This document shows positions 2,209 to 2,472 of a stretch of 64,000 bases of DNA, in pieces. The DNA lies in assembly GCF_030409055.1 (NCBI RefSeq), contig NZ_CP116619.1, forward strand, positions 963,628 to 1,027,627, read 5' to 3'. The notes under the pieces are model-generated. The model had not been told where the DNA came from. It worked only from the letters and a program-made list of their open reading frames with translations, and made no database searches. The DNA comes from Trichocoleus desertorum NBK24. GTDB taxonomy: Bacteria > Cyanobacteriota > Cyanobacteriia > FACHB-46. Position 1 is the first letter of the stretch; the number at the start of each line of letters is the position of its first letter. Both the position numbers and the translations under genes were made by a program.

Positions 2209-2281
2209 GCCGGGATAGCTCAGTTGGTAGAGCAGAGGACTGAAAATCCTCGTGTCACCGGTTCAAGTCCGGTTCCTGGCA
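2209..2281 (+). tRNA. trnF: tRNA-Phe (GAA)
   Basis: A complete cloverleaf of 73 nt. Acceptor GCCGGGA pairs with TCCTGGC (one G-U), the D-arm is GCTCAGTTGGTAGAGC, the anticodon loop is CTGAAAA (anticodon GAA) between GAGGA and TCCTC, the T-arm is ACCGG-TTCAAGT-CCGGT, and the discriminator is A2281. CCA is not encoded. This tRNA is the attachment target of the CAST: a GTA PAM at 2227-2229 is followed by a 17-nt protospacer at 2230-2246 matching the element's homing spacer. The tRNA is left intact because insertion is 62 bp beyond the PAM. Confidence 0.97.
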
Positions 2282-2285
2282 TATC

Positions 2286-2290
2286 ACAAA
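2286..2290. repeat. CAST target-site duplication, tRNA side (ACAAA)
   Basis: ACAAA directly precedes the TGTACA terminus at 2291. An identical ACAAA (41584-41588) directly follows the other terminus at 41583. A 5-bp duplication is what Tn7-like TnsB transposition leaves. Confidence 0.85.
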
Positions 2291-2411
2291 TGTACATTAA
2301 CAAGTTGCCTGTCATCGTTAACGCAATGTTGTCTTCTTAACAATTTGATTGTCATCATTATTAAATTGATGTCATCAAAGCCGATAAAACTACCGTTAAC
2401 AAATTATTGTC
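2291..2411. repeat. CAST CRISPR-side terminal region with TnsB sites
   Basis: The terminus TGTACATTAACAAG begins at 2291. Five related sites follow at 2291-2313, 2317-2333, 2336-2353, 2357-2373 and 2395-2411, each resembling TTAACAAnTTnnnTGTC and several followed by ATC or TTC. These are the expected TnsB binding sites. The region is AT-rich and holds no gene. I avoid calling it left or right end, because published naming differs between elements. Confidence 0.88.
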
Positions 2412-2442
2412 GTTGACTTGCCCTTGCTTTTCGAGGGCGAGT

Positions 2443-2472
2443 TTTTCAGTCCTCTGCTCCTTTCAACCCACC
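2443..2472 (-). CRISPR. Homing (delocalised) crRNA unit targeting tRNA-Phe
   Basis: Read on the minus strand, a truncated repeat GGTGGGTTGAAAG (2472-2460), identical to the 3' end of the array repeats, is followed by spacer GAGCAGAGGACTGAAAA (2459-2443). These 17 nt are identical to tRNA-Phe at 2230-2246, directly 3' of GTA, a PAM fitting the GTN preference of Cas12k. Beyond 17 nt the match ends. V-K elements are known to home to tRNA genes with such a separate short crRNA outside the regular array. A decayed full repeat may lie between this unit and the array, around 2506-2541 (AGCTCTAGAAGGTGGTTGC at 2520-2538). Confidence 0.9.

Follow-up and report, generated by a model that had tools for sequence, protein, structure and literature searches.

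In Trichocoleus desertorum NBK24, a type V-K CAST of 39,293 bp lies 9 bp beyond the end of a tRNA-Phe gene, which is intact. A truncated repeat (R*) and the 17-nt anchor spacer that follows it are almost certainly the homing guide of this element, a short crRNA that directed Cas12k to tRNA-Phe and the insertion to a point about 61 bp downstream. The features are listed in Table 1 by their position in the window, that is, the whole stretch of 64,000 nucleotides that was analysed. The anatomy of the guide, the geometry of the insertion, the target-site duplication (TSD), the empty site and the recurrence of the arrangement at other tRNAs were observed directly. From published work on related elements, we infer that the guide is transcribed, is loaded with the tracrRNA and targets Cas12k, and that it acted in this very insertion.

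Table 1. Features of the NBK24 element and its attachment site, by position in the window
Feature	Position	Strand	Basis
tRNA-Phe (GAA), intact; attachment (homing) gene	2209..2281	+	ARAGORN; Rfam RF00005, 71.3 bits
GTA, GTN-type PAM	2227..2229	+	Sequence; GTN in 30 of 31 surveyed loci
Anchor protospacer GAGCAGAGGACTGAAAA inside tRNA-Phe	2230..2246	+	Sequence; sole perfect target in the genome
TSD ACAAA, array-side copy	2286..2290	.	Sequence
Array-proximal transposon end, tip TGTACATTAACAA (TGTACA at 2291), TnsB-site-like repeats	2291..2410	+	Sequence
Anchor (homing) spacer, 17 nt, reads GAGCAGAGGACTGAAAA	2443..2459	-	Sequence; survey
Truncated repeat R*, GGTGGGTTGAAAG, 13 nt	2460..2472	-	Same as the 3' end of three array repeats
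CRISPR array, five repeats, 73-75 nt spacing; two repeats closest to R* degenerate	2572..2908	-	Sequence
Predicted tracrRNA, anti-repeat AACCCATCT pairing with R*	3085..3330 (extent approximate)	-	Conserved motif and anti-repeat from the survey; fold
Cas12k, 646 aa	3358..5298	-	NF038191, 939.5 bits (cut-off 150)
MerR-type regulator, in the position and orientation of CvkR	5375..5839	+	PF13411 (MerR_1), 55.7 bits; layout as in PMC9938897
TniQ, 169 aa	26755..27264	-	PF06527, 42.1 bits
TnsC, AAA+	27264..28097	-	PF05621, 121.4 bits
TnsB transposase	28104..29828	-	PF09299 (Mu-transpos_C), 72 bits; rve
Far transposon end, tip TGTACATTAACAAATTA, TnsB-site-like repeats	41388..41583	-	Sequence
TSD ACAAA, far copy	41584..41588	.	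Sequence

Insertion site and components of the element

The tip TGTACATTAACAA begins at 2291, and its inverted counterpart at the other side extends to 41583; both ends are Tn7-like, and the element is flanked by a 5-bp TSD. In a genome of the same genus (G386), the same tRNA-Phe was found with both flanks joined and the element absent, and the empty site could be read directly. The junction there is CCTGGCATATC-AAAACTCTATA, compared to CCTGGCATATCACAAA / element / ACAAAAACTCTATA in T. desertorum NBK24. Based on the tips, the duplication and this empty site, the element is a V-K CAST insertion of the length given above.

Both the array and the predicted tracrRNA lie between cas12k and the array-side end, as expected of a V-K CAST, with the tracrRNA motif and anti-repeat located near 3086-3125. 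The MerR-type gene is divergent from cas12k and corresponds to the small DNA-binding regulator of a V-K CAST. The tnsB, tnsC and tniQ genes are arranged in the V-K order, all on the minus strand, and the reading frames of Cas12k, TniQ, TnsC and TnsB are uninterrupted over their full length. The array spacers gave no matches to plasmid records, which lends no support to plasmids as targets of the array.

The published plan (PMC9938897) places tnsB first among the genes at the far end, whereas in the NBK24 element 11.7 kb of cargo lies in between; there was otherwise no essential difference. The cargo separating tnsB from the far end (29829-41396) encodes TPR, CHAT and caspase-domain proteins. 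An older internal transposon end beside tnsB (29829-30320) was sought as an explanation for cargo outside tnsB, and a scan for TnsB-site-like repeats found none. Cargo in this position is a departure from a habit of layout and not from the defining mechanism, and the assignment to V-K was kept.

The region 6468-17160 is defence-like and carries type I restriction-modification genes, of which hsdM is apparently split by an insertion sequence (10194-11354); after these come an AAA ATPase and an HNH-like gene, which in PADLOC hits are reminiscent of the PtuA/PtuB pattern. Transposase fragments occur in mid-element (20480-26674), together with a reverse transcriptase-like ORF (22437-24122) and two ends of group II introns, one on the minus strand (20563-20640) and one on the plus strand (24190-24266).

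Homing guide and its target

On the minus strand, R* (GGTGGGTTGAAAG, 2472-2460) directly precedes the spacer (GAGCAGAGGACTGAAAA, 2459-2443). Three of the five array repeats end in the same 13 nt as R*, which stands apart from the array, about 100 nt from the nearest repeat. The spacer matches tRNA-Phe (2230-2246) at 17 of 17 positions, and the match stops at exactly 17 nt. The preliminary description had reported this truncated repeat, the 17-nt identity to tRNA-Phe and the GTA PAM, and every coordinate was confirmed by script. It had also placed the element end 62 bp from the PAM; the geometry holds, while the PAM ends at 2229 and the tip starts at 2291, which leaves 61 bp between them, the difference being one of counting convention. 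The genome is a single contig of 5,458,034 bp, and throughout it, even with one mismatch allowed, the 17-mer occurs in two places only, the spacer and tRNA-Phe.

These features agree with the published V-K anchor layout of an R* of ~12 nt, a 17-nt anchor spacer, a GTN PAM and 46-82 nt to the element end (PMC9938897, citing Saito 2021). The structure of ShCAST contains a 17-bp RNA-DNA heteroduplex (PMC9876797), which fits the 17-nt length of the anchor here. According to the mechanism that we propose, the short crRNA, consisting of R* and the 17-nt spacer, would pair through R* with the tracrRNA of the element and load Cas12k. Cas12k would then locate GTA and the adjoining 17 nt within tRNA-Phe, opening a 17-bp R-loop, and TniQ and TnsC would recruit TnsB for insertion ~61 bp downstream, just beyond the 3' end of the tRNA. 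Since the tRNA would remain whole, the host would retain a working copy. The central claim of the preliminary description was that a homing crRNA brought the element to its place next to tRNA-Phe, with the tRNA kept intact; this claim is supported by the insertion anatomy, the survey below, the published anchor-spacer model (PMC9938897) and the ShCAST heteroduplex (PMC9876797), with transcription and activity presumed for this copy.

A hairpin at 2417-2441, just past the anchor, was considered as a 3' processing or stop signal of the short crRNA and was rejected. Its T-run is on the plus strand, so it would, if anything, stop plus-strand transcripts. By eye, a counterpart of this hairpin was absent from the second V-K CAST of the genome.

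Recurrence at other tRNA genes

A narrower scan of genome contigs for Cas12k gave only three relatives, and a phylum-wide search was used for the survey. Of 386 genomes sampled across the phylum, 37 had Cas12k above the family cut-off, and the survey comprised 40 array-side regions, including the second V-K CAST of the NBK24 genome. In 31 loci, this window counted, a tRNA gene no more than 3.5 kb away is directed towards the array-side end. All 31 exhibited an R*-like motif and a 17-nt anchor matching their own tRNA, at 17 of 17 positions in 17 loci, 16 in 13 loci and 15 in one. The anchors were found with the aid of R*-like motifs, so these own-tRNA scores are partly selected, while the count of 31 out of 31, which is by tRNA presence, is unselected; the loci are related and not independent. 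By comparison, tRNAs of other isotypes mostly matched at 8-11 of the 17 positions (832 comparisons). The PAM was GTN in 30 of the 31 loci. The targeted tRNAs include those for Ala, Arg, Cys, Gly, Leu, Lys, Met, Phe, Pro, Thr and Val.

The preliminary description had called for a survey of V-K elements at tRNA-Phe in other cyanobacteria. Two others use this tRNA: L058 targets the same 17 nt as here with one mismatch, and L049 targets the T-arm side. The outcome that it had named as unfavourable, a 17-nt match unrelated to the insertion sites of homologous elements, was not encountered. The match of the spacer to tRNA-Phe is thus not due to chance, because the 17-mer is near-unique in the genome and the arrangement recurs in every locus with an array-facing tRNA.

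Several loci showed particular features. The anchor of L075 (tRNA-Cys) matches at 17 of 17 positions next to GCG rather than GTN, the lone PAM exception of the survey. In L039 the anchor target lies outside any detected tRNA, and in the remaining loci, those without a nearby array-facing tRNA, a good anchor was not found. Spacer position 15 holds 7 of the 13 single anchor-tRNA mismatches (L038, L041, L054, L062, L066, L069 and L073; tRNAs Ala, Leu and Met). For L054, a perfect target of the anchor was absent elsewhere in its own genome.

The second V-K CAST of the NBK24 genome (L053, C1:84200-92200) carries an R* and an anchor, AGAGCACTACGTTGACA, that matches tRNA-Val at 16 of 17 positions, with a GTT PAM and the tip 60 bp from the PAM. 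A search reaching 16 kb past tnsB did not locate its far end. One genome thus contains two elements of the same kind whose anchors differ and match the tRNA beside each, tRNA-Val in one case and tRNA-Phe in the other. Also detected in this genome were a third homologue of TnsB (55% identity) and fragments of TnsB (C1:5453305-5454948, 2431-4273 and 128571-128855), which suggests further Tn7-like elements or their remnants.

Alternative explanations

Two other origins of the tRNA match were weighed. A remnant repeat could by coincidence be followed by sequence that resembles a tRNA. Arms of tRNAs do recur in genomes, and two further sites with a PAM and up to three mismatches to the anchor were present in this one, just these two and each with three mismatches. 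Coincidence would nevertheless have to produce identity over all 17 positions together with a PAM and an R* at the right spacing, and to do so with different tRNAs throughout the 31 loci, the second element of this genome among them; the survey refutes it, and its probability is close to nil. The match could instead be a copy of the tRNA left by a tyrosine recombinase, not a guide. Fragments resembling the 3' part of tRNA-Phe (~43-50 bp) do occur elsewhere in several related genomes, and other islands may use tRNA-Phe. The copy described here, however, is inverted, ends abruptly at 17 nt, lies directly behind R* and is set 150 bp inwards from the tip of the transposon. The element, moreover, has Tn7-like tips and a 5-bp TSD, and at its far boundary (41584 onward) only ACAAA was seen and not the direct repeat of the tRNA 3' end that a recombinase would leave. 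A recombinase origin is accordingly extremely improbable.

Another alternative accepts that R* and the anchor guided the insertion and holds that their expression has since been lost. A search of the minus strand for a sigma-70-like promoter of the R*-anchor unit found none, the single minus-strand match of the region lying downstream of the unit. The degeneration of the two array repeats nearest R* and the disruption of the cargo by insertion sequences and introns also fit such a relic. Against this, the spacer still matches its target at every position, R* is intact over 13 nt, the tracrRNA anti-repeat is complementary and all four proteins are open. Loss of expression is rather unlikely.

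Pairing of R* with the tracrRNA

Across 27 loci, R* formed a mean of 8.33 Watson-Crick pairs out of 10 with the anti-repeat of its own tracrRNA, compared to 6.90 when the partners were permuted (0 of 5000 permutations), a contrast that shared ancestry inflates. Among 18 distinct combinations, R* exceeded the commonest array repeat in length of anti-repeat pairing in 13 and fell short of it in 2, with 3 ties (sign test, p 0.007). By the total of Watson-Crick pairs, R* was better in 10, worse in 2 and equal in 6 (p 0.04). In this window the advantage of R* over the array repeat amounts to one pair (9 vs 8). In duplex energy with the tracrRNA tail, R* surpassed shuffles only moderately, 18 of 500 being as good, and the alignment-based pairing was used instead.

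These values leave room for the tentative idea that R* of V-K elements is tuned to the anti-repeat of its own tracrRNA, in which case the homing guide might load better than array guides, the guides being ranked by tracrRNA fit. The fit between R* and tracrRNA may already be known (Saito 2021, Hsieh and Peters 2021).

Relation to known systems and significance

ShCAST, the V-K CAST of Scytonema hofmannii, has the Cas12k, TniQ, TnsC and TnsB set in common with the NBK24 element. Its att site and cargo are different. The closest likeness is to the cyanobacterial anchor spacers and R* (PMC9938897; homing experiments by Saito et al. 2021, Cell, cited there), where an R* of ~12-13 nt, a 17-nt spacer toward the array-side end and a GTN PAM are found alike. 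As in those systems, the protospacer is in a tRNA pointing at the element, and the 61 bp measured here is within their 46-82 nt.

The atypical or private crRNAs of type I-F3 CASTs (PMC11406308) likewise have a divergent repeat and bring about homing to a chromosomal att site by means of a guide, although these elements are a different family, Cascade-based and with att sites at guaC, yciA, ffs and rsmJ. Type I-B2 and I-D CASTs (PMC10293859) also insert just downstream of tRNA genes; their homing is by the TnsD protein, whereas that of V-K elements is by a guide RNA.

In reviews (PMC11406308; PMC11656645), guide-based homing of V-K CASTs is attributed to the 2021 papers of Saito et al. and of Hsieh and Peters. 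The element at tRNA-Phe of NBK24 exemplifies this known system, the tRNA-targeting delocalised crRNAs of V-K CASTs having been described since 2021. It is a clean and complete example of guide-directed homing, with a guide, target and PAM that are all legible in the sequence along with the spacing, the TSD and the empty site. The second element of the same genome uses another tRNA. The fit of R* to the tracrRNA offers a testable idea for the ranking of homing and array guides. The published rule is confirmed to predict the attachment sites of V-K elements from sequence alone.
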